Source: Quercus robur (taxonomy: Eukaryota > Streptophyta > Magnoliopsida > Fagales > Fagaceae). Taken from it: a DNA stretch of 64,000 nt. A program made the position numbers and the translations under genes. The DNA lies in contig NC_065545.1 in the NCBI RefSeq assembly GCF_932294415.1, forward strand, positions 19,100,857 through 19,164,856, written 5' to 3'. The notes under the pieces are model-generated. The model searched no databases. It saw only the letters and a list, made by a program, of their open reading frames with translations, and was not told where the DNA came from. This document shows, piece after piece, positions 1-36,035 of the stretch. How positions within the stretch are numbered: the stretch's first letter is position 1; each line of letters begins with the position of its first letter.

Positions 1-205
1 AACCTTGCTTGAGTTTGTGTTGGTAGTACACCAATTGAACCATTGCACTCTCTCTTCTTTCTTCAATAAAATCTAAGCACTTTTCTAGCAACTCATTGTT
101 ACTGCTCGGACTAAATGAGCTGGTCTTTAGCGTTGAGAAGCCAGTTTCTAAAGGAATAACAACCTCGGCTCTATAAGTCATTGAAAAGGGAGTCTCCCTG
201 GTTGA
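1..205 (-). mobile_element. Ty3/gypsy integrase C-terminal fragment (fossil)
   Basis: The minus-strand translation resembles the end of a plant Ty3/gypsy integrase: a stretch like RETPFSMTYRAEVVIPLE, followed by a helix ending YYQHKLKQG. It runs off the window edge and stops matching near 205. It is a short, broken piece of an older element; no LTR is visible. Confidence 0.7.
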
Positions 206-445
206 ACAGATTTTTTTTATGTGAACAGATTTTTTGTTAATGTTTCAAATCAAACCAACCAAACTAATTAAACTGAGCCGATCAAACCGCATTGCTATAG
301 GTCGGAATACTGACCCTAATCGGTATGCATCGGTTTTAATAATTACAAAACCGATCCCTATCGGTTTGGTAACAAATTTGAAAAAAAACCGAGCTGACTG
401 AACCGTGCACAACCGTAGTAGGAATAGAGGAAGTGCTCTACAACT

Positions 446-483
<38 letters not shown>

Positions 484-489
<6 letters not shown>

Positions 490-691
490 TTAAATATATA
501 ATATATTTTAAACATATATTAAAATATGGGTGGGTCGGGTCGGGTTTAGCAGGTTTAATTTTATGACCCAAACCCAACCCGACCCGCTAAAAAAAAAATT
601 GTAACCCAACCCACCAAGCCCTAAAAACTGACTAAACTTAGCGGGTTGGATTGGGTCGGGTCGGGTTTGGTGGGTTTTATGCACACCCCTA
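484..691. repeat. GGGTCGGGT-rich segment with hAT-like terminus
   Basis: This low-complexity segment of GGGT/ACCC motifs ends with GCACACCCCTA at 681-691. That is the same terminal sequence as the well-supported hAT element at 37228-43230. It is preceded by a poly-T run at about 450-482. No opposite end or target duplication could be fixed, so only a terminal remnant is claimed. The rest of 206-914 shows nothing else. Confidence 0.4.
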
Positions 692-914
692 ATTTTTTAA
701 TTCATAGAAAAGAGTGAATCCATGAATTTCGAGAAAGCGGCTTGCAAATGCAACACACAAAAACCATCCTCGGAGCATTTGCTTTTTTCTTAAATTGATC
801 CGTGCGCTTGTAGTCAAAAGCAGTCTGGAAACTCTAGTAGCTGATAGTCCCGTAGAAGCACAAGCCATTAGCCATATAGATTCTTTTGTTTATAAAGGTT
901 GATTGATAACTTAC

Positions 915-930
915 ACAACGCCTGATTCCT
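915..930. repeat. LINE target-site duplication, left copy
   Basis: ACAACGCCTGATTCCT, identical to 6751-6766. It abuts the poly-T (poly-A of the minus-strand element) that starts at 931. Confidence 0.93.
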
Positions 931-942
931 TTTTTTTTTTTT

Positions 943-3850
943 GAAACCAAAGCAAATTGCTGAATTCATTGCCAATAAGAAAAGAAAGTACAACAAGCTC
1001 CAGGAAAAAGCAGATTACAAACTATCTTCCTGAACAATTTGAAACAGCCAAGGAGGACCTACTCCTCTCCACACTTGAGATAATTCCTTTTGCCTTCCAA
1101 ACTGAGCCAACTCGTGAGCTGTCTTGTTGTATTCTCTTTTCACATGCTTGATTTTCCAGCTATTAAAAGAAGCAAGCAGACTATGAATTCCTTGATAAAT
1201 ATGGCCAAGACAGCCACCATTTCTAGCTGCTAAAACACTATTAACTACTACTAGAGCATTAGATTCCAAAATTATTTGGGAAAGCTTTTGCTCCTTGGCA
1301 AGAAGGAGACCACATTCCATCGCTAAAGCTTCAACTTCCTCCACTGAGTATTTGCCTTGTAGATATTTACAACAAGCAGCAACAATATTGCCAGCTGAGT
1401 CCCTAATTACAGCTCCCACACTAGAGTTCTTTTCACCATCCGAAGTAGGACCATCAACATTGATCTTGAATATACCTGGAGGAGGCGCTAGCCACTTACC
1501 TTCTGACCGGGACAAGCTTTGAGCACAAGCTTTTGAAGCATTTTTGAATTCAAAAATATATTTCTTTGCAAAGCTCCAAATATGATCAGGCATTTGACTT
1601 GAGAACTCATACACAATTCTATTTCTATTGCACCAAATTGCCCAAGCGGCCCTAAAGAAAATCTCCAAGTCACTGGATGAACCATATTCCAAAATCTCCA
1701 TAGCAATATCTACAATATTTCTATTTACATTCAATAACAAAACCGGACAGTCCAGCCAACAACTCCATACCCTCTTAGCCATTTCACATTTCACAAAGAC
1801 ATGACAACTTGTTTCAGGCTCCATGCCACAAACCGGGCAAACATCACAGGTATCAACACCTCTCTTATGCAGATTCACAAAAGTAGGAAGAGCATTCTTG
1901 CATAATCTCCAAGCAAAGATACGTACCTTAGGAGGAATGTTTAGGTGCCATAGCTTTTTCCATAGAGGACCTCTAGAATCACCAGTAGAACATTCGCCTA
2001 CCTCCAAAGTATCAAGCACTCCAACAACAATATACTACGCACTTCTAACACTGAATTCTCCTTTTCTATTCCCCACCCATATAATCTGGTCTTCTGGAAG
2101 GCTGTGGCAAAGGGGAATATTTAGAATAGTCCTTTCTTCAAAAGGCAAGAATAGAGATTTCACTACATCACCTTTCCACCTCCTAGTATCTCTATCAATA
2201 AGCGATGAGACCCTAGGGTAATCATTAAAAGGCTTCGGGGGGGAGATAACTTTGTATGTTGTTGGAGTCAGAAGCCATTTATCCTCCCAAATAAGAATCT
2301 TCTCACCATTGCCAACTCGCCATCGGGTGCCTCTTTTCACAACTTCCAACCCATTGAAAATGCTCCTCCAAGTATAAGAAGGGCTGGATCCAAGCTTAGC
2401 GTGAAAAATATCACCATGCGGATAATATCTTGCTTTAAAAATTTGGGCCACCAGAGAGTTAGGATTCAAAATCAATCTCCAACCTTGCTTAGCTAGCATA
2501 GCAAGGTTGAAAGCCTGAAGATTTCTGAACCCCATTCCACCACTCAACTTAGACTTACACATTTCCTTCCAACTTACCCAAGCAATTTTTGACTCTTGAC
2601 CCCTTTGACCCCACCAAAATTTCCTCATCATTGTTTCCATCTCATCACAAAGGCTTTTCGGGATATGGAAACAACTCATCGTGTATGTTGGGATTGCTTG
2701 AGCAACAGCTTTAATAAGGACCTCTCAGCCACCCACTGAAAGCATTTTTTCCTTCCACCTCGATAATTTCCTCCCCACCCTCTCTTTAATTTCAACAAAA
2801 ATTTCAACTTTTGACTTGCCAATCATTGAGGGTAATCCAAGGTATTTTTTGTGGCGAGTATCTTGCATAGGCCCCAACATATTCAACACTTCACTTCTTC
2901 TATCACCCGGGGTATTATTGCTAAAAAAGACTGAAGATTTATCCGCATTAATCTTCTGACCCGATGCCTCTTCATATAATTGGAGAATATTGATAAGATT
3001 CTGGCATTCTTGACCATTTGCTTTGCAGAATAAAAGACTGTCATCCGCAAAAAGCAGATGAGTAATCTTGGGGCAGCCACGACATATAGAAACTCCACTT
3101 ATTCTGTGATTTCTGGCTGTATCATTAATAAGAGAGGAAAAGCCATCTGCACATAAAGGAAAGATATAAGGCGAAATAGGGTCTCCTTGACGGAGACCCC
3201 TCGAAGGAGTAATGTTACCATAAACAGCCCCATTAACACGGATAGAGTAAGATACAGAAGTAATACAATGCATGATCAACTCTACCCATTTCTCATGAAA
3301 GCCCATTTTAACCGTCACTACTTTAATAAAACCCCACTCCATCCTATCATAGGCTTTACTCATATCTAACTTAATTGCTACAAAACCGTCTTTACCTTCC
3401 TTTTTGTGTTCAAGATAATGCATAAGTTCAAAAGCAGCAGCAGCAAGCACATTGTCGGTAATAAGTCTACCGGAAAGAAATGCACTTTGATTTTCAGATA
3501 TAATCTGAGGAAGGATCACTTTAAGATGATTGACTAACACTTTAGATATGAGTTTATAAACAACGTTACAAAGACTAATAGGTCATCTTTGTGGGGTTTT
3601 TTATTTTTGGCACCAAAGTGATGTTTGTTTTATTAATTTCAGCCATAGACATATTAGAGTTAAGAACATTTAATATCATGCATATCACATCATTACCAAC
3701 AATACCCCAATGATTTTGGAAAAAGGTAGCAGACATACCATCCGGTCCAGGAGTTTTTGTTGGATGCATCTGGTTCAGCGCTATCTCAATTTCCTCCCTA
3801 GTGAATTCTTGAATTAGGGACTGATTCATTTCCTCCGTGACTTTTGTTGG
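943..3850 (-). pseudogene. LINE ORF2 3' half: reverse transcriptase, zf-RVT, RNase H
   Basis: This is the C-terminal part of LINE ORF2. It starts just upstream of the RT domain (KTPGPDGM at about 3750) and continues with RT palm motifs, including SRGLRQGDP and the catalytic FADD. Next come a zf-RVT domain near 1960-1750 (Cys-rich, CDVCPVCG) and an RNase H domain near 1480-1090 (NVDGPTSDG). The ORF stops at 1015, followed by a short 3' UTR and the poly-A. Three open stretches (3540-2725, 2679-2035, 2019-1015) share one frame and are separated by stop codons. The first piece (3829-3575) is in another frame. The stop near 2727 reads TGA where related LINEs have Arg, consistent with CpG decay. 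Confidence 0.9.
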
Positions 3851-3859
3851 AATAGCAAA

Positions 3860-4027
3860 GACTCTCCCCTGTAGGAGCTTTTTCTCTCTCTGTACAGTAA
3901 GAGCTTTCTTTCTCTCTCAGTCAAGTAAGAGCTATTCCCTCCCTAAAAATCTTATCTGGGCTCTTTCTTGGATTACACCATTTTCCCTAAAGTGGTTGTA
4001 GTCCATATTTCATTTGGTTGTAGCCGT
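3860..4027 (+). other. LINE 5' UTR segment
   Basis: This CT-rich leader contains repeated GTAAGAGCT/TTTCTCTCTC motifs and lies between the inversion junction and the ORF1 ATG at 4028. Because the leader is present, the inverted half probably reaches close to the true 5' end of the LINE RNA. Confidence 0.55.
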
Positions 4028-5567
4028 ATGGATCAGGATGTAGTGAATAGTTTGGGAAACTTGAAGCTCACAAAAGAAGAAGAAGAAGAGGATATTGTTA
4101 TTACTAATAGCAACAGTTCTGAAATCTTTGAAGAATGCTCTCTGAGCTTATTTGGGCGTCTACTTTTAGATCGCCATCAAAATCTTAGAGCTGTGAAGAA
4201 CACTCTAAAAGCAGCTTGGAAAATGGGCTCTGATCTGAGAATAGTGGAAGTGGGTAATAATATTTTGCAGTTTAAGTTTGGGTCTAGATACCAGCTAGAG
4301 TGGGTGGAAAGAAGTGGCCCTTGGAATTTTGATAATAACCTCCTTCTTCTTTGCCGATGGAGGAAAGGTTTGACATCAAAAAACATTACTTTCTCCCATT
4401 CTCCTTTTTGGGTGCAAATATGGGGACTGCCATTTGAGAATATGACTGAAGATATTGGAAGAGATATTGGCAGTAAAATTGGAAGAGTGTTGGAGGTGGA
4501 CAAGAGAGCTATACAAATAGACCAAGCAAAGTTTTTAAGAATAAGAGTTGAGGTGCAAATTGATAAACCTCTCCGTAGAGGGGGGTATGTGAAGAATGAT
4601 GAAGGTGGAAGATTTTGGGTGGATTTCAGGTATGAGAGGTTGCCTACTCTCTGTTAACTTGGGCATGATGAAAAACATTGTCAAGGTAGTTCACTGGAGC
4701 AATTATCAGGGAGGCAATATGGTGAATGGCTGAAAGCTAGTGGAGTTTTGAAATTTGGAGGTGAAAAAGATAGGTTGAAAGAGCAGTCCGTGGCTGAGAA
4801 AGGAGGCTTGGCTTCCATGGTGGTGGACAGTGATGCTAGAAAAGGAAGTGGGGCGGGCAGCCAAAGCTCGCCAGCGATGGTGGTTGACGGGAATGTAGAG
4901 GCGGAGAAGGGTGTAGCGCTCATGATGGAGGCGGATCAGTTGGAGCATGAGATGAATCCTGATATGTCAAGTCACAGGAAACACGGTGAGTAGGCCAGAT
5001 GGGAAGAGACGTTGACAGGAGCTTTGAACAGTGTGGAGGAGCAGAAGACACGTGATGGGCAGAATGAAGATAGAACTAGTTCGGTAAGGACTAATTGGAT
5101 TGGGACTGAAGCCGGTCAACAAGTAGTTAGAAAGCCATTTGGGTCGGATACTAATGGGGTTGGTAGTGTAAGCCCACAAAGAATAAATGAGAATGAAGGC
5201 TTAAGTGGGGAAAAGAAGAATGGGCTGAATTTAAATGAGCTTGAAAGGAAAAAGCCCGTGGGGCTAGAAGAAAAAGAGCACTCTTTGGTGGACCGGACAC
5301 AGCCTCCTTGTCCAGACTGTGGGATTGCCCAAGGAACTAAAAGGAGATAAAAAGATTGCTAGAGAAAAAGGGAAAGCCCAAGAGGTCGTGAAGTCAGAAA
5401 GAGCCCAAGAGGTAAGTAAAAAAAGAAAGTTTAATAATGAAATGTTGCTTATCTTTGATGAAAATGTCCATAAACGTTTATGTGCTAACGTTGGGGAACA
5501 TGAAGGGGGTGCAAATTTATTTGATGAAACAGCGGTGATTGCTGAGCAGCACTGCCTAGACCAATGA
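4028..5567 (+). pseudogene. LINE ORF1 (DUF4283-type gag-like protein)
   Basis: ORF1 of the same LINE. It encodes a DUF4283-like RNA-binding region (LKAAWKMGSDLRIVEVG ... GPWNFDNNLLLLCRW ... VQIWGLPFENM). The remains of a CCHC zinc knuckle (LGHDEKHC) follow at about 4660, then a long charged, low-complexity tail. ATG 4028 is preferred over 3968 because the conserved region follows it. An in-frame TAA at 4655 sits exactly where the first knuckle cysteines should be, with several residues missing. There is another stop at 4991 and a frame change near 5320-5350. The final stop at 5565-5567 overlaps the ORF2 start as ATGA. Confidence 0.8.
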
Positions 5568-6750
5568 TTGCTTTAGGTTGGAACTGCTAGGGGCTTGGGA
5601 ACCACCGATCAGTTCGAGTGTTACGCGAGCTTGTGCAATGTTGGAAGCCTAAGATAGTCTTCCTGTCAGAGACAAAAATGAAGAAATATCAAATGGAAAA
5701 GGTGAAATTTAAAATTGGTCTATTGAATGGTTTAACTGTTCCTAGTGTTGGGAGGAATGGGGGTTTAGCTTTGTTATGGTGTAGGGATATTAAGGTTGAA
5801 ATCCAAAGCTATTCTAGGAATTTTGTTGATGCAGTGGTGACTGACCCTGAGTTCGGTTTTAAGTGGCGTATCATCGGTCTCTATGGGAACCCTGAAACTC
5901 ACCGTAGAAAAGAATCATGGGAGTTATTGAGAAGCCTTAGTCGAAAGATCCATCTGCCCTGGTTATGCTTTGGTGATTTTAATGAAATAGTATCGGTGGA
6001 AGAGAAATTGGGCGGGGTGCTAAGATCGCAAAAACAGATGGATGATTTTAGAGAAGTTATTCACCAGTGTAGGTTCAAGGATCTTGGGTTTGTTGGGCCT
6101 AAGTTTACTTGGTGTAATATGCAAGAGGGTGAAAGCAGAATGTTTTTGAGATTGGATCGTGCTTTGGCAACTCTTGATTGGGTTGATCATTATAAAGATG
6201 TAAAAGTGCATCATTTGGTGGAATCCACTTCTGACAATTGCGCTTTGCTTTTAACCGATGATACTGTTGTTAAGAGGTATCCCACTAAACATAGATTTTA
6301 GTTCGAAGCAATGTGGACTAATAGGGCGGATTGCAAAGACATCATCCAAGGGGTCTGGGATGGCTGCCAAGAGTTAAATTCTCCTATGGGAATAGCTGCA
6401 AAATTGAGATGTTGTGCTGATAATTTATCTAGGTGGAACAAATTGGTGTTTGGGCAAATTCCAAAGAAAATTCAGGAGAAAAGGGAGATTCTCAATAGTT
6501 TGGTTTGCAAAGACAGAAATGGCAGCTTGGGCGGTGAAATTAATATTCTAAGGAAAGAAATTAATGAATTATTGGATAGTGAAGAAATTAAGTGGCACCA
6601 GAGAGCTAAGGTGCAATGGCTTGGGCTTGAAGACTGAAATATGAAATATTTTCACACTAAGGCTTCAGATAGAAGGAGGAAAAATTCAATCAGCTGTATC
6701 ATGGATGATGAAGGAAATTGGCATGACTTGATTGATGGCATTGCGGGGTG
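5564..6750 (+). pseudogene. LINE ORF2 5' half: APE-type endonuclease and start of RT region
   Basis: This is the N-terminal part of ORF2: an exonuclease-endonuclease-phosphatase fold starting with ALGWNC, then FLSETKM (catalytic Glu), GDFNEI and FTWCN, with an SDNCALL stretch near the C-terminal His/Asp region. It is followed by the linker that precedes RT (KYFHTKASDRRRKNSI), and it ends abruptly at the target duplication. Everything is in one frame apart from three stops, at about 5588, 6299 and 6635; the last two sit where related LINEs have Gln/Arg codons. The ORF continues, after a short gap, in the minus-strand half. Confidence 0.88.
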
Positions 6751-6766
6751 ACAACGCCTGATTCCT
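6751..6766. repeat. LINE target-site duplication, right copy
   Basis: ACAACGCCTGATTCCT, identical to 915-930. Confidence 0.93.
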
Positions 6767-7139
6767 GACACACTCAAATGTCAAGTTGCTAATTCTAGGC
6801 AACAACTAACAAGAAACGACCTACATGTAGACCCGCAGAGTGAACTACCTAGCATGCCTGTCGTCCTAAAACCATGCGTGCAAAAAAAAGCCCAAAAAGC
6901 TTTATTGACGGAAAGTTTTATCCTTACCTCTGATGGGTGATTTGCTTACCTGAACAGTATTACCAACTACAAATATGTGAATTGGAACTTTTTTTTTTTT
7001 TTTTTTTGAGAATTTGTGAATTGGAACTTAAAAACTGATTATACATGCAATTCAGATTAATGTACAACATTAAATTTAAAATAAAAATACTTGGAATCGA
7101 ATATGCCCTCAACTCACCAATAGAAAAGGAAAATCTTAT

Positions 7140-10399: not shown

Positions 10400-11433
10400 A
10401 TGGACAAAACATAAACGTTCCTTTTACATTGTATTTGCAATGTAGATTTATATTCATAAAAAGTGGTTAAGTGCTTTTTTTTTTTTTTTTTTTGGAGAAA
10501 CATAAAAAGTGGTTTAAGTGTTGACATTTGCAAAAAGTGTACAATATATGCCACTTTTTATGTGCCTACAATGTAAACATATGAAAATCCAATCCAACGT
10601 AAAAATAGACACATCTCAAAGACTCAAAACAGTTTTCCTTCGAATATGTCTAAACAGCAAACAAAAACGTGTAGTATTTAAAAAAAAAAAAAAAAAAAAT
10701 TTTAGCATTGTCACATGATCTATTTAATTTAGTCACTAAAATAGTCATATGTGGTATTCTAATCAAAGTGGTGCTATTGTTACTAAAAGTTTTACTATAT
10801 AGCCTTTGCAAATTGGTGTGTCACCAAGCAAAATAAGGTAATCAAACATTTATTTGTTATGTTTTAAAATTTACCAATCACATTCATTGCCTCTGTCAGT
10901 TTGTAAAGATTACATAATAAAATTTGTGGTATTTTTAACTATAGAAGCTTAAGCAAGAAATAACAAAGGAAACTTATGTTTGGAGTGAGAAAATATTAAT
11001 GAGAAATTGCATTTAGCTTAACTAGGACTGAGATTGGATCGGGTTCATAGGCACCGGCACAACCTAACCCAATAAAAAATGAGTTTTCTAAGGGAGAAAC
11101 TCAACCCAACCCGCAGATTCCCCCTCCCATGTTGTTTTGGGCCTTTTTTTCCCACATTTTTTGAGGATTTTTTTTAATTGGTGCATTTTACTACCTATGG
11201 TTTAAACTTACACATTTTACTATGAACTAATCTTATATAGAGGGACTCATGATCATGATCATAGAGAAGGAAAATAGCTAGACAGCCTAGACTTACGTAA
11301 TTGGCTGGCTTGATTCACAGTGTCTCTCCATGGAAAAAAAAATCTCAAAATTCAAAAATGGTAACAATTCTAAAGATTTGAACAATAAAACTTTTCAAGA
11401 AGGAAGAGAATGCATATAAAGTATTTAAGTGTG
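10400..11433. other. Non-coding stretch
   Basis: AT-rich intergenic sequence with poly-T (about 10467-10495) and poly-A (about 10680-10699) runs and a short CAACCCAACCC-type segment near 11030-11130. No gene or well-bounded repeat was seen. Confidence 0.5.
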
Positions 11434-13717: not shown

Positions 13718-14307
13718 TAATGATAGAAATTAAATCTAATAATTATGAGTGTTTAAAACTTAATGCTGAAGTGTAAGACTTGAGATTGCGTGTTAAAGGA
13801 GGGGGAGAGAAATAAAGAAACAAATAATAACATATCCAATGAATGTAGGGAATTAATTTTGAAAAGGGGAAAGGGGAGTTTTGGGTGGCTATAAGTTTAA
13901 ATTGCTTGATTTTCTCATTAAATTTAACTAATGAATTTAGACTTGACTTGGACATTGGCAGTCTAATCTAGCCAAATTCCTACTCTATAATGGCAGACCA
14001 AATTCAAAATGGGTTTAATGGAGGAAAACATGACTTAAAAGGAAATAATTTTCAAAAAATTTACATTAGAAAATTTTCAAGTGATGGTTATGGTTGACAA
14101 AAAATTGATGAAATTAAGAAGAAAATTTGTATTATGAATATTTTTTTAGAACACCATATTAGGAATATAAGTATATAACATTAGACTTTTAATTTTCTGA
14201 AATACTAGAACCAAAACAAGAATAAAACTGTTTTCTAAAAAAAAAAAAAAAAAAACAAGAATAAAACTACTCCACTAGTTTTAGCCTATGAACTAAAATT
14301 AGTCCAG

Positions 14308-14534: not shown

Positions 14535-15324
14535 TATATATATACACACACATATATACACAAAACAATACCTAACTCCTGTTCCTTTTTGAGCACCAAA
14601 TGTCTTCATATTCTCAAGCACCACTTCCTTCCAGCCAATCATCCTCTACCTCTACTCCTCCTCCAAACAGGTGAGAGAATAGCTAAGTATATTTTATTAA
14701 CAATTTTCTAATTTTATCAGTATTTCACAAAATTATTCCTAATAATTTTCAAATGGTTTTTGTTTTTGTTTTTTTATCGTTTTTAAAAAGATTGGGCGAG
14801 TCGGGTTGGCCCTAAGACTGACCTGAGTGTATGACCCGGACCTGACCCATGAATCCATCTAGCCCGCCCAAGATCCTTAGGGTCAGCCCTGCAACCAACC
14901 AATTAATTTACAAATGCTCTGTTATACATACACCAGAGCAAAGATAAAAACTTGGCAGGAAATTAAAACAAACTAACATCATGCAGCTCTGTACACGTGT
15001 CATAACAGAAATATCAACAGTACTAACCCAATCCTAACTAATTGAATATCAGCATGTGGCAATACGATTGAAGTTCCAGCTACATACAGAACCTACTTGC
15101 AGTTTATGTAGAACAGTAGATCAACTAAACACTATAGCTTATGCAGAAACATCGCCGACTTTAAGATTAGCATTATTCATCTAATTAAAGTAGACTGCAA
15201 TTAGAAAGATACTTAATTGATTTACACAAATGTGAAATGCAAAGGGAAGTGTCTTATTATTCGTACCGTGTGATATTTATTTAGACAAAAGACGTACCTC
15301 ATTTTATTTAGACAAAAGACGTAC
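14535..15324. other. Non-coding 3' flank of the TIR-NBS gene
   Basis: AT-rich sequence. A GGGCGAGTCGGGTTGG...GGGTCAGCCCTGC segment at about 14790-14895 looks like a repeat end. No leucine-rich-repeat exon is recognisable here on the minus strand, which is where an LRR exon of the upstream NBS gene would be expected. Confidence 0.5.
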
Positions 15325-15330
15325 CTCATG
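15275..15330. repeat. Tandem duplication across the exon 2 splice donor
   Basis: The sequence TTATTTAGACAAAAGACGTACCTCAT occurs twice in a row, with the second copy ending in the exon 2 boundary. On the minus strand this gives two copies of the donor GAGGTACGTC about 26 bp apart. Confidence 0.85.
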
Positions 15331-18300
15331 AAACCATTGTTGGCTATATTCTCCAGCTCCTTCCGAAGATTGTCTGCGGTTAATTTCTTTACCCATTTCT
15401 ATAATCAAATCATGCATTGTCAGTCTGTTCAAGCAATCGATGGTTACAAGACATCGACGACCTAAAACTGCAAGTTCACTTTCAAAGGAGAAATCTGAGT
15501 CTCCAAGTATTTTCAAAGTATAATTTTTTTCCATTCCAACAAAGAAAAGTGCAATTTTTAGAAACAGCGCCTTCTGCTTATCGCTTAGTGAATGAAAACT
15601 TATCATCAATTCTTCACAAATTTTAAAACGAGAATCTTTTAATTCTTTCACTGTACTTTTCCATTCCAACTTGCTCTTGCCAAACAGACTAGAACCCAAA
15701 ACTTTTAATACCAATGGAAGTCCCTGAGCATAATATACTACTTCGTTTGTGAGCACTACATAATTTTCATTAGGATGGTCTTTTCCAAATGCATGCCAAC
15801 TAAAGAGCTGAAAAGACTCATTGTAATCCAGGAACGGTGATTCATAGATGAAATCACACCCAGCACCATGTAGCAGGTGCTTAGCTCTTGATGTAATAAT
15901 AATTATACTTCCTGGTTGAAAATAATCCTTATCAATACCTAGCTTTCTTAACTCATCAGGGCCCCACACATCATCGAGAACAAGAAGAAACTTTTTACTC
16001 TGAATTATGTCTCTTATAACACTAATTCCTTCATAAACATCCCTAACTTTTTTCTTGGAATTTACTTGGGCACTGGAAATAATTTGCTCTTGTAAATCAA
16101 TCAGACCACCTGATTGTTCAGATCTTGTTCGTATATTTTCAAGAAAGCAACTTACTTCGAATTTACATTTTATTAGGTTATATAGAGCTTGGGCAATTGT
16201 TGTTTTGCCAATGCCACCCATCCCCCAAATGCCAACCATGCAAACATCACCTGCATACTCATCTAAATGCTTATTGATTTCTTGCACCCGAGACTCAACT
16301 CCAACTGGGTAGGGTGTAACAGTGAAGTATGCCAGATTTAATTTAATCAAAATATCTCCAATAATTTTCTCTATAAGCTTTGACTCGGAACTGCAAGTTG
16401 TATCCAAAATAAAAATAGAAGTCAGCGATCATTTATTATTTAAGATGAAACTAATTAATCATGAATAGAATGAAACACCAAAATCATATAAATACTTTGT
16501 TGCTCCCTTTTTTGTGTGTTTGTTTCTCTAAAAAAACATCTTTGTTGCTCCCTAAGATTTAATCATGACTCATGAGCTATTTTAGTCCTTAATTGCTTTT
16601 TTAGTCCCGTACATGATATTGCCAAACCAAAAACTGATACTTAGGGTCCGTTTGGATACAGCTGAAAACTGAAAACTGAAAAACATTGTAGTGAAATAAT
16701 TTTTAAATGTGTGAATAGTATCGTGGGACCCATTTTTAATGAAAAAGTTGCTGAAAAGTGAAATTTGTGGGTCCGTGAACAGTACACGATGTGCTGTGAT
16801 TGGTCAAAAAAATTTGAAAAGTCAAAGTTTGCGGCTACTGTTCATTGAACAGTGCATGAACAGTAGCCGCAACGCCCAAAACGCTCCAAAACGAGTGAAA
16901 AAAAAAAAAAAAAAAAAAAAAAACAGACAAAACGCAAACGCAGGGAACTTTCAGCCGAATCCAAACGCACTCTTAGAGCGCGTTTGGATTCGGCTGAAAA
17001 AAACTGCGTTTGCGTTTTGTCTGTTTTTTTTTTTTTTTTTTTTTTTTTAACGCGTTTTGGAGCGTTTTGGGTGTTGCGGCTACTGTTCATGCACTGTTCA
17101 ATGAACAGTAACCGCAAACTTTGACTTTTCAAAATTTTTTGGACCAATCATAGCACATCGTGTACTGTTCACGGACCCACAAATTTCACTTTTCAGCAAC
17201 TTTTTCATTAAAAATGGGTCCCACGATACTATTCACACATTTAAAAATTATTTTGCTACAGTGTTTTTCAGTTTTCAGTTTCAGTTTTCAGTTTTCAGCT
17301 GTTCAATGAACAGTAGCCACAAACTTTGACTTTTCAAAATTTTTTGGACCAATCACAGCACATCGTGTACTGTTCACGGACCCACAAATTTCACTTTTCA
17401 GCAACTTTTTCATTAAAAATGGGTCCCACGATACTATTCACACATTTAAAAATTATTTCGCTACAGTGTTTTTCAGTTTTCAGCTGGAAAAAAAAGATAA
17501 GTTACCCGTTTGGTTTCCGTGTTTTACTGTGTTTCAGCGTTTGCGTTTTGGGCATGGGACCCACGCTACAGTTGCACGCAGTAAAAGCTGCAAATGTTGA
17601 CTTTTCCACTATGAACAGTGCATCCGTGCACTGTTCACAGATCCACAAATTCCACTTTTCAGCAACTTTTTCATTAAAAATGGGTCCCAAGGCACTATTC
17701 ACACATTTAAAAATTATTTGGCTACAGTATTTTCAGTTTTAGTTTTAAATTTCAGCAAAAATAAGCTCAATCTAAACAGACCCTAGGAACAACGCCATAT
17801 GCATTTTAGGGTGTTCACTAGGTTCCAAAATAGAATTTTATACTTGAAAAAAAAAATTATATACATAATTATTTTTAAACTAAAACATTTTCTCTAAATA
17901 TTGAACACAATGACTTGAGCATCTTAAGTATTTGGGTTCAACAAAAATAGAGTAATGTTATGATTACAATAATTTCACAACAGATCTTAAGTAGTACGCT
18001 GTTATTGGTTTTCAATTGGGTACACCATTGATATCACTTTTTTTATACATCAATAACAACTTATCATCTAAAATTTTTAGTGAAATTGTTGTAAACGAAT
18101 AACTTCTCATAAAACTTATCTTGGTCCCCCCCAAACATAATATAATCCTTAACTCTTTAATAATAGTAAAAATGAACCTAAATAATAGTAAAAATTGCCC
18201 AAAGAACAACAAATGAACAAAAAATTCAACAAAAACCTATTAAAAAACATAAAAATAAAAAATAAAAACTTCTAATCTAATTCGAAACTCGTTCAACCCT

Positions 18301-20238
18301 TTATATAAAAATACTGCCTAATTTCATTTTTCCTAAAAGCAATAATAAGAGAGATACTTTGGCCATGAGATTTCCTTAGCAACTTTGCTCGAAGGCTTGA
18401 CTTCCAGCCAAAATGGCTATTACTATTTGCCCCTTTCTCTGTCACTTTCTCAATTTTTCTCTTTATTATTAACATTTTAGACCCTCTTTCATTTTTTTAC
18501 TCTCATATCAACATTATTAGTTCTCATTTTAACTCTCATTAGTCGTTTCTCCAAAAAAAAAAAAAAAAAAACTCTCATTAGTCACTTTTTGCCTATTTAT
18601 TTTGTTAGTAGAAAGAAATTGTAAACTTTATATATTTGTAAGTTTTTTTTTTTTTTTTTGGTTATATCAATATATTCAAGTTTTTTTAATGAGATTTTAT
18701 GTAATTTAAATTTCTTTTTACACCCTAAAAAAAAGATTTTAGATCAAAACAATCACTTTAACTTTGTTAGTACCTAGACTAGATCACAAGTTTAGGACTA
18801 AAATCACTCATAGAAACGTCATACAAGTTTAGAAACCATCACTATATACATGGGCGGAGCCATGTTGAAGGGTGGGGGGCCATGCCCCCCCTCCCCCCCC
18901 ATTTTGAAATTTTTTTAAATATATATATAAATTTTAATGTTTTCAAAATTTAGTCTACAAAAATAAGAGTTGGCCCCCCCAAGTATTTGAATTAGTCCAA
19001 TGATGCTTTAAAAAAAAAAAATTGGTCTAATAGTTATAGGGACAACTTTATTTTTCGCAATTTTATTTTTTATTGTAAAATGTGTCTTTATATCTGTTAA
19101 ATATTTGAAAAAGTTTGGCACCAAACATGTTTGAATTTATCTTTTTCAACCTGTTATGTGGCGATTAACAAGTCATTGACTCATTAAAAAATTATTGTCA
19201 CTAAAACTACACATGAAATGTCTCTTTAGTTGCCACATAATGGGTCAAAGCAAAATAGTTTCAAATATGTTTTGAGCCTAATTTGTTCCTCCAAGTTTTG
19301 GATCATTCTTGTTTTTGAAAATTACATTAGTTCGATTGAATAATTTTACTTACATTAGTATAAAATTTGATAATTTTTATAGAAAATGAAACTTTTTAAG
19401 AATTTCACTATGAAAATTGTGAAAATGTATTTTATTAATTTTATGAAAGATAGCCATCAAACATAATTTTGATTGAAAATATTAAGCTCTTTTTTTGTTG
19501 GGTGTGTGTATATATATAACTTATCAAATAAAAAAGTGTGTGTATATAAAAAAAAAAGCATGTGTATTTATGTGTGTGTATGGAGTTGTCTTAATAAATA
19601 TATTAGTGTTGCAACTTGGCCCCCAAATAAAAATTCCTGGCTCCACCCCTGACTATATATATTTGCCTTTTTTTTTTTTTGGTAGTATCTACATCATTAC
19701 TGTCAAATATATTTAGCAAAAAAATGAATTACCGATGTGCGTCATTTCCCGAGTCCCACCCGGCCAAGTTTGCAGCCTCAGTCAAAGCAGTCCTCCACCT
19801 CTGCACCTTACCTTCCCCGAAACGCTCCACATGACTGGCAAATACTTGGGCCAAATTCCCCTTCAGTGCACGCAACTTGGACGGCTCCACATTGTAGAAA
19901 ATGGGCAGTACAATTTGCTGCAAGCTCCGTCTGCATTCCAAGATCTTAGCCAGCTCATTCAGACACCAGCTGGAAGCAGCGTAATTTATGGAGAACACTA
20001 TAATAGCAATCCTTGATGTCTCGATTGCCTTCTCTAGCTCGGTCCAAATATCTTTCCCTCTCTCGAGCTCCTTGTCATCTCTAAAGGCGCGAATCTCGTG
20101 CCGTTTTAGAGCAGCAAAGAGGTCATGGTCTGTAAAGCTTTTGCCAGTATCATCGCCATTGTAACTTACAAATACTTCGTAACCCCATGTAGGACTTGGG
20201 CTGGATGTGAATGATGAAGAAAAGGTTGTTAGCGCCAT
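15325..20238 (-). CDS. TIR-NBS disease-resistance-type gene (no LRR seen)
   Basis: Probable intracellular immune receptor of the TNL class. Exon 1 is 20238-19733 and encodes the TIR domain (YEVFVSYNGDDTGKSFTDH, the RDDKELERG loop, SINYAASSWCLNEL). ATG 20238 (MALTTFSSS) is preferred over 20283. Exon 2 is 16390-15325 and encodes NB-ARC with all main motifs in order: P-loop GMGGIGKTT, kinase-2 LLVLDDVW, RNBS-B IIITSRAKHLL, GLPLVLKVLG and MHDLI. The splice sites CG|GTAATT and TTGCAG|TT join the exons in frame (NDAHR-SESKLIEK). Exon 2 ends at CATGAG|GTACGT, the usual TNL position before LRR exons. None is found downstream in 10.4-15.3 kb, so this is either a TN-type gene or a truncated TNL. Its 3.3-kb intron is full of MITEs. 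Confidence 0.88.
16643..17787. repeat. Cluster of related MITEs in the TIR-NBS intron
   Basis: At least four segments share GGGTCCCACGATACTATTCAC, AGCAACTTTTTCATTAAAAATG and CACTGTTCACGGACC motifs, in both orientations. The outer ends are GGGTCCGTTTGGAT on the left and CTAAACAGACCC on the right, which pair as inverted repeats. No clear target duplication was found. Members of the same family lie at 44058-44455 and 45408-45612. Confidence 0.8.
16658..17300. repeat. Large near-perfect palindrome, arms about 315 bp
   Basis: The sequence from CAGCTGAAAACTGAAAACTG at 16658 is matched as reverse complement by the end at 17300 (...TTTTCAGCTG). The centre is near 16976, where CCGAATCCAAACGC meets GCGTTTGGATTCGG. 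Each arm includes one poly-A/poly-T tract. A transcript through this intron could fold into a long hairpin. Confidence 0.88.
17950..18112. repeat. MITE related to 13351-13519
   Basis: Inverted ends TTACAATAATTTCACAACAG and GTGAAATTGTTGTAAACG flank a core with GTTATTGGTT, like the nested MITE in the MULE-like element. Boundaries are approximate. Confidence 0.5.
18849..19651. mobile_element. Non-autonomous hAT element, 803 bp
   Basis: Perfect 8-bp target duplications ACTATATA lie at 18841-18848 and 19652-19659. The terminal inverted repeats are CATGGGCGGAGCCATG and, as reverse complement, CAGGGGTGGAGCCAGG. There is no coding capacity. It sits in the intron of the TIR-NBS gene. Confidence 0.88.
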
Positions 20239-20283
20239 GAAAGCAGAGCAACAAACTATTCTTCCAAGAAAGAAATTAAGCAA

Positions 20284-23539: not shown

Positions 23540-26500
23540 ATGGAATCCAACCCAGATTCAACGACCTTGGCCCAGCAAGTTCAAGCCCTGGCAGCCACCA
23601 TTGAGGAACTCACCAGGCAGAACCAGGAAATGAAGCTGCGGCTCCAGCAGGTTCAACAAGCTCAACAGGAAGAAAACCGGTCCAAGGGTAACACGGAGGG
23701 AGAGGGGGATAGCCAACAGAGGGAAACCCCCCGGAGACCAACTACTCCGGACGAACAGAACTCAGATCTTCTTCGGGAAATGAGGAAAGAGATGGACGAA
23801 CTAAGGAGCGCTATCAAGGAAAAAACAGACCGGAGTGTAGACAAGATGGTAAGGGCTACAGATTCGCCCTTCACTGCAGCGGTACTTAATTGCCCCGTGC
23901 CGTCAAAGTTTCGCCTGCCTCAATTAGAACCATTCGACGGACTCAAGGACCCTCAGGATCATCTTAATACCTTTAAGACGACTCTGGGCCTTCAGCAACC
24001 ACCTGACGAGATATTGTGTCGTTCCTTCCCTACGACTCTCAAAGGAGCTGCAAGAGAGTGGTTTACTAAGTTGCCGAACTCGTCCATAGACAACTTCGAT
24101 CAGCTAAGTAGTGCTTTCTTGCGTCACTTCATAGGGGGACAACGCCCAAGGAGACCAGTAGATTACTTACTCACCATAAGACAGGGAGAGAAGGAGACTC
24201 TGAGGTCATATGTCAAGCGATTCACCCGGGAAACTCTGGAGGTGGACGAAGCTGATGACAAGGTGCAACTGACGACCTTCAAGGCAGGGTTGAAATCCAG
24301 AGACCTTGTAGCCTCTCTTGCCAAAAACCCCCCGAAGACAATGGCTGAGATGCTCCTGAAGGCCCAAAAATACATGAACGCGGAAGATGCTCTAGCTGCC
24401 ATAAAAGATACCGAGAGGCTAGGAGACAAGTCCAAGAGGGAAGACGACCGCAGAGGGCAAAAGAGAGACAGATCAGAACGTCGGAACAATGACGGGAATA
24501 GAAGGAGAGATGACAAAAATCCTCGTCAGGTAAAATTTACTCCTTTGGTTATGCCTGTTGACAAGATTTTCACGCAGATCAAGGACGAGCATTATCTCAA
24601 ATGGCCCAGGCCATTACACTCGTCCCCTAACGTACGTGACAAGAACAAGTATTGCCGGTTCCACAGAGACCACGGCCACAACACAGAAGATTGCAGAGAC
24701 CTAAAGGAACAAATAGAGGAGTTAATACGGAAAGGAAAGTTGCAGAAATATGTAAAGAAAGGAGAATATAGCAAGTTCAGAGACGACAACAGGATCCAAC
24801 ATGAATCCTTCACTCGGGATGACGACCATCCGTCCCAACCTCCACGCAAAGTGATCGGGGAGATAAACACGATCACGGGAGGACCATCCTCAGGAGGATC
24901 GTTTAGATCACTCAAAAAAGCATGCCACAGACAGGTGAACAGCGTCCACACCGTGCCTCCGTCCAAGCACCGACGAACATACCAAGACATGTCCTTTAAT
25001 GAAGGAGACGCTAGGGGAGTAAAGCAGCCTCACAACGATCCTCTGGTCATAGTGCTGAATATAGAAGGGTTCAACACCAGAAGGATCCTTATTGATAACG
25101 GGAGCTCAGTAGATATCATCTACCTCCCAGCATTCCAGCAGTTGAAATTAGATCCAAAAAGGCTCCGCCCTTTTGACTCTCCGCTCGTCAGCTTCAGTGG
25201 AGACAGGGTCTACCCCAGGGGAATAGTGACTCTGACGGTGACGGCAGGGACCTACCCGTTGCAGTTGACCAAACAAGTAGACTTCCTGGTGGTAGATTGC
25301 CCCTCGTCCTACAATGTCATCATAGGGAGGCCCACCCTAAACAAGTGGAAGGCGGCGACGTCGACCTACTGTTTGAAGGTGAAATTCCCAACAGACAACG
25401 GCGTGGGTGAAGTGAAGGGTGACCAAGTCCTGGCAAGGGAATGCTATCAGGCCGTCCTGGCAAGAAAAGAGAACCACACGTGGACGATTGAAGAAAAAGA
25501 GGAGGACGGAATGGAGACCCTGGAAGTAGTGGAGTTGGTAGCAAGAAATGCGGACAAGACGACCAGGATAGGGACGATGCTAAGCCCCGAGATGAGAACG
25601 AGACTCATAAAATTCCTTAAGGGGAACCTAGATGTCTTTGCATGGGGTCACAAGGACATGCCAGGCATATCTCCAGAAGTCATCCAGCATAGGCTGAATG
25701 TGGACCCCAGCAGGAAGCCCGTCCAGCAACGACGAAGAACCTTCGCTCCGGAACGAGATCAGGCAGTAGCAGAGGAAGTAACCAAACTCTTGACGGCTGG
25801 ATTCATCCGAGAAGTATATTATCCAGAGTGGCTCGCCAACATCGTCCTGGTAAAGAAAGCCAACGGAAAGTGGAGAATGTGTGTAGACTTCACCGACCTG
25901 AACAAAGCATGTCCAAAGGACAGCTTCCCTCTACCAAGGATAGACCAGCTCGTGGACTCCACCGCCGGGCACAAGCTACTAACGTTCATGGACGCCTTCT
26001 CAGGGTACAACCAGATAAAGATGGCTGAAGAGGACCAGGAGAAGACTGCCTTCATCACGAGCCAAGGACTCTACTGTTACAAGGTGATGCCTTTTGGATT
26101 GAAAAATGCTGGAGCTACGTACCAAAGATTGGTAAACAAAATGTTCAGCCAACAGATTGGCAGGAACATGGAAGTATACGTGGACGATATGCTCGTCAAG
26201 AGCAAGGAGGAGTTCGCTCATCTGGACGACCTGGAGGAGACTTTTGCAACCCTGAAAAGACACCAGATGAAGTTGAATCCAAGCAAGTGTGTTTTTGGGG
26301 TGGCCTCGGGAAAGTTCTTGGGATTCATGGTATCCCAGAGGGGAATAGAAGCAAATCCAGAGAAAGTACGAGCCATCATTGACATGGCCTCACCCAAGAC
26401 CGTCAAGGATGTACAAAAGCTTACAGGAAGGATAGCAGCTTTAAATAGGTTCGTCTCTAGGGCCACAGACAAATGCCTGCCCTTCTTCAAAACCCTCAAG

Positions 26501-28714
26501 CAGGCTTTTGCTTGGACCGACGAATGCGAGGCAGCGTTCCAAGAGCTGAAGCAATACCTGAGCAGTCCACCCCTCCTGAGCCCGTCCAAAGGAGGGGAGA
26601 ACCTATACTTGTACCTGGCAGTGTCAGCCTCGGCAGTAAGCGCAGCCTTGATTAGAGAAGAAGGCAAGAAGCAACTCCCGGTGTACTACGTCAGTCAAGC
26701 CTTGCAAGGAGCTGAGTTCAGGTATCCAAGGATCGAAAAGATTGCGTTTGCACTTATAGTAGCCTCACGCAAGCTCAGGCCGTATTTCCAGTCGAATCCT
26801 ATCCTTGTGATGACGGATCAACCAATTAAGAAATCAATGAACAAACCAGAAGCAGCAGGGAGAATGGTCCAATGGGCAATCGAACTCAGCCAATTTGACA
26901 TCGAGTACCATCCCAGAGCAGCCATCAAGGCCCAAGCCCTGGCTGACTTCATCGCTGAGTTCACTCTTCCAGATGAACATGGAGTTACAGACGAAGTTGA
27001 TAAATGGACAATACAGACAGATGGTTCGTCAGCCCAAAAGAGGGGGGGAGTAGGGGTCGTCATAACCACCCCCGACGGAGAAGTGATGAGATACGGGGTT
27101 CAACTGAAGTTCCCAGCCACTAATAACGAAGCCGAGTATGAAGGAATATTGACGGGCTTGAGGCTTGGGAAAGCTCTTGGAGCCAAAAACTTGCTGATCC
27201 AGAGTGATTCAAAGCTGGTAATCGGACAGATCAGTGGAGAGTATGAAGCAAAGGAAGAAAGGATGCAGAAATACCTTAAACTGACAAGGCAACTAACTCA
27301 AGAGTTCGACACAGTGGAATTCGTCCAGATACCAAGGAGCCAGAATATGGGGGCCGACGAAGTATCAAAACTAGCGTCATCAGAAGAAGGGAAGACGAGC
27401 ACAGACATGGCAATAGAGATCCAGAAACACCCGAGTATTGAAGAGGTAGCGGTATTTTCCATCCAGAGCACAGACACCTGGATGACGCCCATAATATCCT
27501 TCCTCCAGGACGGGCACCTACCTCAGAATACTGACGAAGCCAGAAAGGTCAAGAAGAGAGCAGCCAGGTTTACAATCCTGAATGACGTCTTGTACAAGAG
27601 AGGCTTCTCCATGCCTTATCTAAAGTGCGTCGACGAGGACGAGGCCAAATACATCCTGGAAGAAGTACACGGAGGAATCTGTGGCGACCATGCCGGCTCC
27701 AGATCCCTAGTCAACAAGGTGATAAGAGCGGGGTATTTTTGGCCAACCATGCAGGGGGATGCTGCTGATATCGTTAGAAGGTGCGACAGATGCCAGCGGT
27801 ACGGGAATGTGCAACGGCTTCCAGCGGAGAAAATGACGACCATAGCCTCCCCATGGCCGTTCGCACAATGGGGAATCGACATCGTCGGTCCTCTGCCCCA
27901 AGGTAAAGGTCAGGTAAAATTCCTTCTAGTTGCTATTGACTATTTCACTAAATGGGTTGAAGCAGAGGCCCTAGCAACCATCACTGAGGCTCGGATCCGG
28001 AGCTTCGTGTGGAAAAACATAATCTGCAGGTTCGGGATTCCTTTGACGATCATATCTGATAATGGGAAGCAGTTCGACAGCCAAGGCTTCAGAGACTTCT
28101 GCTCGGACCTCGGGATCAAGAATCAGTTCTCATCCCCGGGACACCCCCAGGCAAACGGACAGACGGAAGTAACGAACAGGACGCTGCTCAAGATAATCAA
28201 AACCAAGCTGGACGAAGCAAAAGGTGCCTGGCCAGAAGAACTACCTAGTGTCCTCTGGGCATACAGGACTACAGCCAGAACCCCGACAGGAGAGACACCC
28301 TTCAGGCTTACCTATGGCACAGAGGCAGTGATCCCAGTAGAAGTTGGAGTAACAGGCATCAGGCGAGGAACTTTCAGAGATGGACTCAATGACGAGGAAC
28401 TGCGGTTCAACCTGGATTGCTTGGATGAAGTAAGAGACAATGCGTCCAGTAGAATGACGAAGTATCAAAAGAAAATGGCCGAGTATTACAACAAGAGGGT
28501 CAAACTCAGGCGTCTGGCCATAGGGGACCTTGTCCTTCGCAAAGTCACTATAGCAACTAAAGACCCTACTCAAGGGAAGCTGGGCCCTACATGGGAAGGG
28601 CCATATCGCATCGTTCACTACTCTAGGCAAGGAAGTTACCATCTGGAAACTATGGACGGACAAAAGCTCCCTCGTCCGTGGAACATTGAGCATTTAAAGA
28701 AATACCATGAGTAA
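23540..28714 (+). CDS. Gag-pol polyprotein of the Tat element (fossil)
   Basis: One long open frame of about 1,724 codons. Recognisable parts in order: N-terminal coiled coil; retrotransposon gag domain (residues about 130-300); a Cys/His knuckle-like segment (about 370-390); aspartic protease (about 495-620); reverse transcriptase with YVDDM (about 740-920); RNase H; a second RNase H with QTDGSS (about 1155-1280); integrase with zinc-binding region, DDE core and C-terminal part (about 1370-1720). It lies 77 bp after the 5' LTR. It is treated as a fossil element; it looks whole. Confidence 0.95.
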
Positions 28715-28815: not shown

Positions 28816-29230
28816 CTAAGTAACAAGATTCCGCCTTGACGGATGTAAGTTACTGACGAACATCATAGGATGGTAAAAAGGCTAAGTAACAAGATTCCGC
28901 CTTGACGGATGTAAGTTACTGACGAACATCATAGGATGGTAAAAAGACTAAGTAACAAGATTCCGCCTTGACGGATGTAAGTTACCGACGAACATCATAG
29001 GATGGTAAAAAGACTAAGTAACAAGATTCCGCCTTGACGGATGTAAGTTACCGACGACCATAACAGTGTTTAAAAAAAAAAAAAAAAAAACTAAGTAACA
29101 AGATTCCGCCTTGACGGATGTAAGTTACCGACGACCATAACAGTATGGTTAAAAGACTAAGTAACAAGATTCCGCCTTGACGGATGTAAGTTACTGACGA
29201 CTATAATAGCAGGGTTAAAAGACCAAGCAA
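28816..29230 (+). repeat. 66-bp tandem repeats in the Tat 3' region
   Basis: Six copies plus a degenerate one of a unit starting CTAAGTAACAAGATTCCGCC, at 28816, 28882, 28948, 29014, 29091, 29157 and about 29222. One unit is stretched by a poly-A run. Tandem arrays in this region are known in Tat/Ogre elements. Confidence 0.92.
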
Positions 29231-33369: not shown

Positions 33370-36035
33370 TGGCTGAAGATAGCCCTAAAAGCGATGAAAG
33401 GTTTCCTTTGTTGAAGACATATCAGAGCCACAAATGCATTTTTCATGTCTACTGGGCTTACGTTGAATTTGTTATAGATGAAGTTTCGATATGCGAAATT
33501 GCTTAGGAAAATGCTTGTACTTGTTCCTCTTTGGACAATGGTCACCTTTGGTGTCTCGGACAAGCATGTTGTTGAGTTAATGCAACCTTCTAGTACAAGA
33601 CCCTAATATGCATGTAACTTAAATTTTAGGCCACCAGCAATATACATGTATTGTTTTTTTTTTTTTTTTTTTTTTTTTTTTTGGAGGGGTGGGAGAGACA
33701 CAACAATGGAATGAGGGAATTCGAACCCAATTTATCCTCCATGAGAGAATTATTGGAATGAAGTGAAAACAATTACTCGCTAGCGCATGATTCCAAAAAA
33801 AAAATTAATACACTAGTGCATGACCATTGATTGGTGTACAATGTATTAATTATTGGAACAAGTTTAGTTTCAAATCCATTTGGTGACTTTTCTAATGAGT
33901 CATGTGATTTATTTAAATAATACTTATGAATAGTCTTATAAATTGCAATGTAATGAGTTTGAAGAGATAGATCCAAACCAATTTGGAGTTTATCCTTAAT
34001 TATTTTTTAAGTCAGTCTTTTTTTTTTTTTTTTTTTTGGGAATCATCAAAATTAGTATTTGTTCGTTTGTGTTTTCTCAAAAATAATAGAGAGCAAGCAA
34101 TGATTTGATTGATGAAAATTTATAATAAATATACCAATATAAAGTGCAAAATGAAGACAATAGGTAACTTACCTCTAGCTGTTTTGAGATTTCAAAGTAG
34201 AGGGGATCAACAGAGACCCAAAAGGCATGCTCCCTTTCCTCAGGAGTCCCATCTATGGGGAAAACTTCCTCAGGTTGAAACCAAATATTGTTCAAGAGGT
34301 TGTCATATGAGCTACCATCTGTGACATTTACTGTATAATCTGCAAAATTTAAATACCCAAATTCTCTCGTGTAATCTCCATTTGATTTCAGGGGTAGCAC
34401 ATCTTCAGGCCCTTGCCCATACCTCTGCAGCATATATATGACAAACATTTGCAAAAAATCAACGGTACTTTAGATTATAGTTACTACAAACATGGCATTT
34501 CTAACATAATTTTATTCACTCTGAAACCTGTGAAAAGAATCCATTTTCATGATGCTCCTTATAATACTATAGTGTATGCACAATCTTTATACAAAGTTTC
34601 ACCATCCACAAACTCATAAAGCTAAATTTGGATGTAAGGTAGAAAATCAAATTTACTACCTGCCAACTCCAAAGAGCAGTATGTCCCCAATATTCAGCAA
34701 TGGTCACATCTCCTCTATTGATAGATGGGTTCACAGTTCCTGCTACACCATAATGCACTACTCCCTCTACATTGAAAAAGCTCAACAAAAGCTGAGTAGT
34801 TATGCCTGCATTTATCTAGGTAAAAAAGAAAAAAGAAAGAACAAATATCGTTAACCCCTCATAAAATTTGAGTGTAGAAAAAATTAGAAAAATGGGTCAA
34901 ACACCAAAGGAAATAAAATCAAAATTAAAAGAATATATAATACCATGCTCAGCCCAGTCATAACTAGTATGACTTTCTTCTTGCCAATGGTTCCAAACCG
35001 AAATCTTTTTCCTGAGAATAAGAAATAATTGAGGGAGGGGGGATAGTAAATAATGGATTTAGATTTCAAGATTTTAATAAAACAAAAATTCTTGCCATGT
35101 TATCTTTCTTTTATTTATTTATTTTTTGATGAATAAGTAGACATTATTATTAGAAATACACAACAGGGGTCAAAATAAAATACGTACTATACAACTAGAG
35201 AAAAGTATATCATGCACTGGAGGTATCCATCTACCCCTTATAGTATGTGGGCTCCACACATTGATCCTCTTGCAGCATATGGACTCTACACGATACGTAC
35301 TTCCTATACATGATATATCATTTACTGTAGATCTCTCACAAGTCACATGTGAGCTTCACTAGCGCATGGAACCCGTGTATGTGAGAAAAAGCAGTGTATA
35401 CAGCGAATACATGATATCCTTTCACAAACTATACGCCTTACAGTCAAAGAACTAGTAAACAAACTCCTTCCCTTCGCTAAAGAGACAACAACCTGGACAC
35501 AAATTAACCCAGCTCTAATCAAATTAATTAGAACATGACAAGAAGATCAGAGCATTTTGTAGGACAGTTGAACACCCTCCTAAACACAAATCTTACATCT
35601 AATCATTTCAAATCCACATATTAATATTTCTTAAATCTATTCATAAATTTCTTCAACAAAACAATTAATTCATCCATTCATACTTAATGTAAGTCATTTA
35701 GAACAATTAAAAACTGAAATCAAAATCCTTCCCTTCAAAACTTCTATAAAAAAAAAAAAAAAAAAACCCATTAATAAAATTATTTCAGTATGCCTAGTAT
35801 TACCAGTTTACCACTTACCAGCAATGTCTATGGTCCGGTTGTTAGACGTGTAGTTTGGAGATTGAAGAAGAGGGTACAGTTCAAATAGGTTCGGAATCAC
35901 CAAACCCAAATAAGGGCCATCTTTGTTGGCCTTAGGTATCATTTTCTGTGTCTGTGCTGTCAATGCACCATTTCCTTGTGCATTAAGCAGCATGAGAACA
36001 GAGAGAAACACACATGCAACTCTCAAAGCTACCAT
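33370..36035 (-). pseudogene. Bark storage protein / nucleosidase-like gene, 3' end decayed
   Basis: Five exons on the minus strand: 36035-35819, 35011-34944, 34815-34660, 34424-34173 and 33602 to about 33373, with good GT..AG sites and matching phases. The product starts with a signal peptide (MVALRVACVFLSVLMLL), so it enters the secretory pathway. It follows the plant bark-storage/MTA-SAH nucleosidase-like fold: GTIGKKKVILVMTGLSM, GVVHYGVAGTVNPSI, YTVNVTDGSSYDNLL, FNVSPVDM. Two things suggest decay. The usual Asp-Met-Glu of the family reads Asp-Met-Lys. After FIAFRA the frame departs from the expected GGGS segment and stops, losing about 35 C-terminal residues. It could instead be a divergent, shortened paralogue. 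Confidence 0.8.
33640..33795 (-). repeat. tRNA-derived SINE in intron 4
   Basis: On the minus strand an A-box-like GCGCTAGCGAGTA is followed by a B-box-like GGGTTCGAATTCC, then a poly-A tail that reads as a long T run at about 33654-33682. This is the order expected of a tRNA-related SINE. Target duplications were not resolved. Confidence 0.55.

Follow-up and report, generated by a model that had tools for sequence, protein, structure and literature searches.

The window analyzed here, a stretch of 64,000 nt of Quercus robur DNA, holds at positions 915–6766 a single LINE insertion flanked by exact 16-bp target site duplications (Table 1). Read from 915 to 6766, its parts follow in the order repeat, T-run, 3' half on the minus strand, the bases AGA, 5' half on the plus strand and repeat. 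The T-run is present only at the left end of the insertion, as an earlier note on this DNA had stated of the poly-A, and base 930, the last T of the left duplication, may equally belong to the A-tail. At the other end, the assignment of the last two bases of the 5' half (6749–6750) is less certain, with a G-run near this end.

Table 1. Coordinates of the parts of the LINE insertion in the window.
Feature	Position	Strand	Basis
Left copy of the 16-bp target site duplication	915..930	.	Exact match to 6751–6766
LINE A-tail, T13 on the plus strand	930..942	-	Sequence
LINE 3' half, from RT start to 3' end	943..3858	-	L009 colinearity; RVT_1, zf-RVT, RVT_3
Inner-junction bases AGA, assigned to neither half	3859..3861	.	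Comparison with L009 and other copies
LINE 5' half, inverted: 5' UTR, ORF1, endonuclease, linker	3862..6750	+	L009 colinearity; Pfam
Imperfect tandem repeat of the 5' UTR, ~28 bp	3871..3933	+	
Right copy of the 16-bp target site duplication	6751..6766	.	Exact match to 915–930

Pfam identifies DUF4283 (ORF1) and Exo_endo_phos on the plus strand and RVT_1, zf-RVT and RVT_3 (RNase H) on the minus strand; a CCHC knuckle in ORF1, also on the plus strand, scores 26.7 bits and narrowly misses the cut-off of 27. Both halves are decayed and interrupted by stops and frame changes. Together they contain the domain set of a plant L1-clade LINE, namely a DUF4283 ORF1, endonuclease, RT, zf-RVT, RNase H and an A-tail; the clade name L1 follows domain content rather than a tree. 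The nearest relatives of the RT piece in the PDB are LINE-1 ORF2 proteins, and the PDB gave no match for the endonuclease piece or for the 37 residues that end the 5' half. No further LINE copies were found inside the window by blastn, and tblastn returned matches at chance level only. Among viral contigs, GTDB genomes, plasmids and phages no relatives were found, as expected for a plant element.

Elsewhere in the window, four tiny insertions are seen at 6976–7029, 10455–10514, 14217–14268 and 18533–18583, in each of which a run of A or T, always exactly 19 nt long, and 7–8 further bases lie between direct repeats of 12–15 bp; GTTTCTCC-A19 at 18553 is one such case, and T19-GGAGAAA at 10475 is one from the opposite strand. 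Their appearance is that of LINE or SINE insertions that ended after fewer than 10 bases of the 3' end. Repeats of at least 11 nt flank 5 of 41 A/T runs, the fifth lying inside a tandem array, as against 6 of 1640 mismatched pairs. An LTR retrotransposon at 23540–28714 (plus strand), presumably Ty3/gypsy as its domain order suggests, carries an uninterrupted 1724-residue gag-RT-RNase H-integrase frame; just past this frame, units of 66 bp (CTAAGTAACAAGATTCCGCC...) form a tandem array (~28816–29130) that contains a 19-A run. Pieces of TIR-NBS resistance genes are found on the minus strand, an NB-ARC with a Roq1-like winged helix at 15304–16407 and a TIR domain at 19729–20283. The stretches 35748–35790 and 43690–43735, ~7.9 kb apart, are near-identical around an A-run, which suggests a local duplication. 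At 16898–17048, A26 and T25 runs with complementary flanks form by eye a fold-back that looks like a MITE.

The 16-bp repeat ACAACGCCTGATTCCT that delimits the LINE insertion is exact (16/16) and occurs in the window only at 915–930 and 6751–6766, in keeping with the perfect target duplication described earlier. Judged by composition, two given 16-mers would match by chance with a probability of 6e-10, and none of 1989 random pairs of 40-mers shared at least 16 nt, the longest shared word being 12 nt. This single duplication brackets both LINE halves. The right flank together with the duplication (235 nt) has one occurrence in the whole assembly, which is the window itself, and no empty site came to light with this flank.

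Related copies were sought in the window's own plant assembly (785,749,727 bases in 42 contigs), the family copies being drawn from the best 40 of 420 and the best 40 of 1947 first-look candidates. The best other match among the candidates scored is L009 (C3:67457500–67467400), a normally oriented copy of 5886 bases with a 10-bp target duplication of its own, GGAATTGGAG. The earlier note had called for an alignment of both halves to an intact LINE of the same family. In this comparison, window positions 3862–6748 are colinear with L009 7859..4961 (95.9%) and positions 933–3858 with L009 1976..4893 (94.8%). The halves cover the L009 reference once, at 3–2901 (plus) and 2969–5886 (minus), with zero overlap, and 67 nt of L009 are absent between them, or 64 nt if the last two window bases are templated; the G-run that precedes these two bases differs in length from that of L009. 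In six further copies the same gap measures 72–76 nt by BLAST ends. An estimate that preceded the use of L009, made from an alignment to human L1 ORF2p alone, gave 26 missing residues or ~78 nt, its 5' side being a 16-residue alignment (plus a 10-residue ungapped extension) that was equalled or beaten by 10 of 2000 shuffles. Domain order and the single coverage of L009 thus bear out the claim that the halves are complementary parts of one LINE on opposite strands.

The two halves diverge equally from L009, the 5' half with 100 substitutions in 2884 positions (3.47%) and the 3' half with 94 in 2882 (3.26%), which argues that both belong to one element. When the halves were compared in pieces of up to 480 nt with seven copies, L009 was the nearest for 6/6 pieces of the 5' half and 6/7 of the 3' half, whose seventh piece is only 36 nt long. 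The exception is the 3'-half piece 1423–1902, which is nearer to L030 (93.3%) than to L009 (91.3%). According to the earlier note, halves of different subfamilies or with wide overlap would favor two separate insertions; the lack of any overlap and the equal divergence of both halves from L009 argue against this.

The inner junction reads GGAATAGCAA, then AGA, then CTCTCCCC, and the AGA matches neither side in L009. The range of about 3850–3870 proposed earlier for this junction was right as to location and can be refined to 3858/3862, with the three bases in between. The outer junction, correctly placed at 6750 to within 2 nt, passes from GGCATTGCGGGGTG into the host sequence ACAACGCC. Because L009 instead continues GCGGTATC where the host reads ACAACGCC, the two share 0 nt of microhomology at this second priming site. 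The search for junction microhomology that had been recommended therefore yielded none at the outer junction and three extra bases at the inner one. Pairing between GCGGTATC and ACAACGCC amounts to 2/8 Watson-Crick positions, and the 7/8 obtained only with G-T pairs carries no weight. A difference of a few per cent between the parent RNA and L009 is possible. In twin priming generally, microhomology where the second cDNA is primed is frequent and is not required.

The inverted half begins CTCTCCCC, and L009 begins CTCTCTCCCC immediately after its own duplication, which places the 5' start of the inverted half within 2 nt of the L009 5' end. This position suggests that the second cDNA reached or neared the 5' end of the RNA. 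L010, L011, L013, and L016, four copies less close to the window, have their duplication, by eye, 21–45 nt further upstream, so that either the 5' end of the family varies or L009 and the window copy are slightly short. The earlier statement that the insertion keeps the 5' UTR accordingly holds relative to the closest copy and needs qualification with regard to these four, which extend farther.

Twin priming of one L1-type LINE RNA at one staggered break explains the segment 915–6766 with a probability that we put at about 0.94, and the proposal of a twin-primed LINE with its 5' half inverted finds support in the coverage of L009 and in the equal divergence. The nicks and primings, whose order we infer along with the use of one RNA molecule, would have proceeded as follows. 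A first nick in the top strand (GATTCCT^GACAC) would have primed on the A-tail of the RNA, giving a cDNA of ~2.9 kb that halted where the RT coding region begins. A second nick in the other strand, 16 bp away, would have released a 3' end for priming at an internal position of the same RNA, 64–67 nt upstream of the stop of the first cDNA, and the resulting second cDNA, also of ~2.9 kb, would have extended to the RNA 5' end or close to it. Joining of the two cDNA ends with AGA would leave the 5' half inverted and 64–67 nt copied by neither cDNA. The half-inverted structure is well known from mammalian L1, and twin priming with 5' inversion was reportedly described for human L1 by Ostertag and Kazazian in 2001. 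The available text of a later paper restates the steps: one cDNA starts at the tail, another starts from the opposite end of the target at an internal site of the RNA, and the two cDNA ends are then joined (PMC4245944). By our analysis the order of parts in the window is the one that twin priming predicts.

Other histories would leave some of the same marks. The two primers might each have been extended on a separate RNA molecule from this family, since near-identical RNAs are indistinguishable from one by sequence, and the 3'-half piece that is nearer to L030 is in line with such an origin. The breakpoints, however, are just 64–67 nt apart on the same element, a proximity that independent RNAs would rarely show, and divergence is equal in both halves; two RNAs are thus judged very unlikely. 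Identical orientation of the parts would also result from a normal full-length insertion followed by inversion of the 5' half and a deletion of 64–67 nt. The duplication directly adjoins the internal point 6750, however, and the element's 5' end sits at the inner junction. An inversion would thus have required one break precisely between the host duplication and the 5' end of the element, and such a later rearrangement is even less probable.

Two independent LINE insertions, head to head, would likewise account for oppositely oriented parts. The 5' half, however, has neither a 3' end nor a tail and therefore cannot be a separate product of target-primed reverse transcription; moreover, the halves are non-overlapping and jointly form one element, a single duplication brackets both, and they are equally diverged from L009, so that this origin has hardly any likelihood left. 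A comparably minute chance is given to an assembly artefact. The analysis drew on the assembly alone, but the exact duplication at both outer edges and the clean tail speak against a false join. Furthermore, the next copy among the best 40 of 420 and best 40 of 1947 candidates is only 95–96% identical, and therefore no other listed copy could supply either half. Twin priming of a single RNA remains the preferred explanation. A wider proposal can be offered only tentatively and is on balance doubtful: that the second priming in this plant LINE can do without base pairing between target and RNA, a 5' inversion from an unpaired 3' end still reaching the RNA 5' end, and that twin priming, far from being peculiar to mammals, recurs when plant L1-type elements integrate.

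A second, older copy with the inverted geometry of the window is a candidate at L035 (C1:31616000–31621500), where the 3'-half search gave two adjacent matches on opposite strands of C1. An inverted segment (2164–3345, plus) adjoins a tail-bearing 3' segment (1389–2177, minus), and the two, which are 88–91% identical to copies L034 and L012, together span L034 from position 2434 through the end a single time, leaving a gap of 32 nt. At the inner junction the BLAST matches overlap by 14 nt, of which ~3 nt (TTT) are by eye plainly common to both. No clear target duplication was found at L035, the longest exact shared word being 7 nt, on the right side and 69 nt from the junction, and the case is therefore based on geometry alone. 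Among 20 judged family copies with a 3' segment, 18 show a single orientation and two, the window and L035, are inverted, proportions that are not a rate because only the best 40 of 420 and best 40 of 1947 candidates were scored. The 18 comprise L009–L017, L019 with L023, L020, L030 with L042, L034, and L036–L040; for L030, L034, and L036–L040 orientation was judged on ~1.2–1.4 kb above the truncation point, and no inverted segment lies within 1.2–1.4 kb upstream of the 5'-truncated L036–L040 and L030 (L042). L019, which has the 5' part only, was considered as an inversion and rejected, its 3' part being found farther along in the same orientation in L023. Excluded from the 20 were L018, which lacks a 3' end, L021 and L022 (~70% alike) and other matches at 66–76% identity, which represent other LINE families or short ORF1 pieces.

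Among the matches listed in a literature search, no paper on twin priming or LINE inversion in plants appeared; subscription literature lay mostly outside this search, so that the negative is no proof of unpublished status. The available portions of PMC2848041, PMC3747384, and PMC13411279 contain nothing on 5' inversion of plant LINEs, PMC3747384 merely citing a paper on mRNA retrotransposition with 5' inversion. According to the accessible part of PMC4245944, 5' inversion has been found only with human L1 in human cells, except for one insert of a zebrafish LINE in chicken cells. The window is thus an example of a known mechanism in a new host, a plant. It indicates that twin-primed 5' inversion lies within the capacity of plant cells and of plant L1-type elements. 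The plant case is a clean one: its junctions can be gauged against a colinear copy from the same genome, and the family contains a second candidate. The frequency of such events, and the target ends from which they arise, can be studied from a defined locus.

The closest known system is twin priming of human L1, with which the window shares the inverted 5' segment, a tail at one end, a duplication in the range of 10–20 bp, non-overlapping halves and a short internal loss. For 5' inversions of human L1, target duplications of 10–20 bp are given in the text available (PMC4245944), a range that includes the 16 bp of the present insertion. The window copy differs from human L1 in its plant host and plant L1-type LINE, in an inverted part that reaches the 5' end of the element, relative to the closest copy, and in the absence of outer microhomology together with the three extra bases at the inner junction. 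L009, 95–96% identical to both halves and with its 5' start within 2 nt of that of the inverted half, is set apart by its normal orientation, its 10-bp duplication and its retention of the 64–67 nt missing from the window. Among plant elements, the L1-type LINE Celine of poplar is described, in the part of the paper available, as ~6 kb long with DUF4283 in ORF1 and with target duplications of 10–30 bp (mean 15), and the word stem "inver" is absent from the main text (PMC11288735). On the same partial source, Celine resembles the LINE of the window in its length of ~6 kb, its DUF4283 ORF1 and the size of its duplications, and differs in being a centromere-targeted family.
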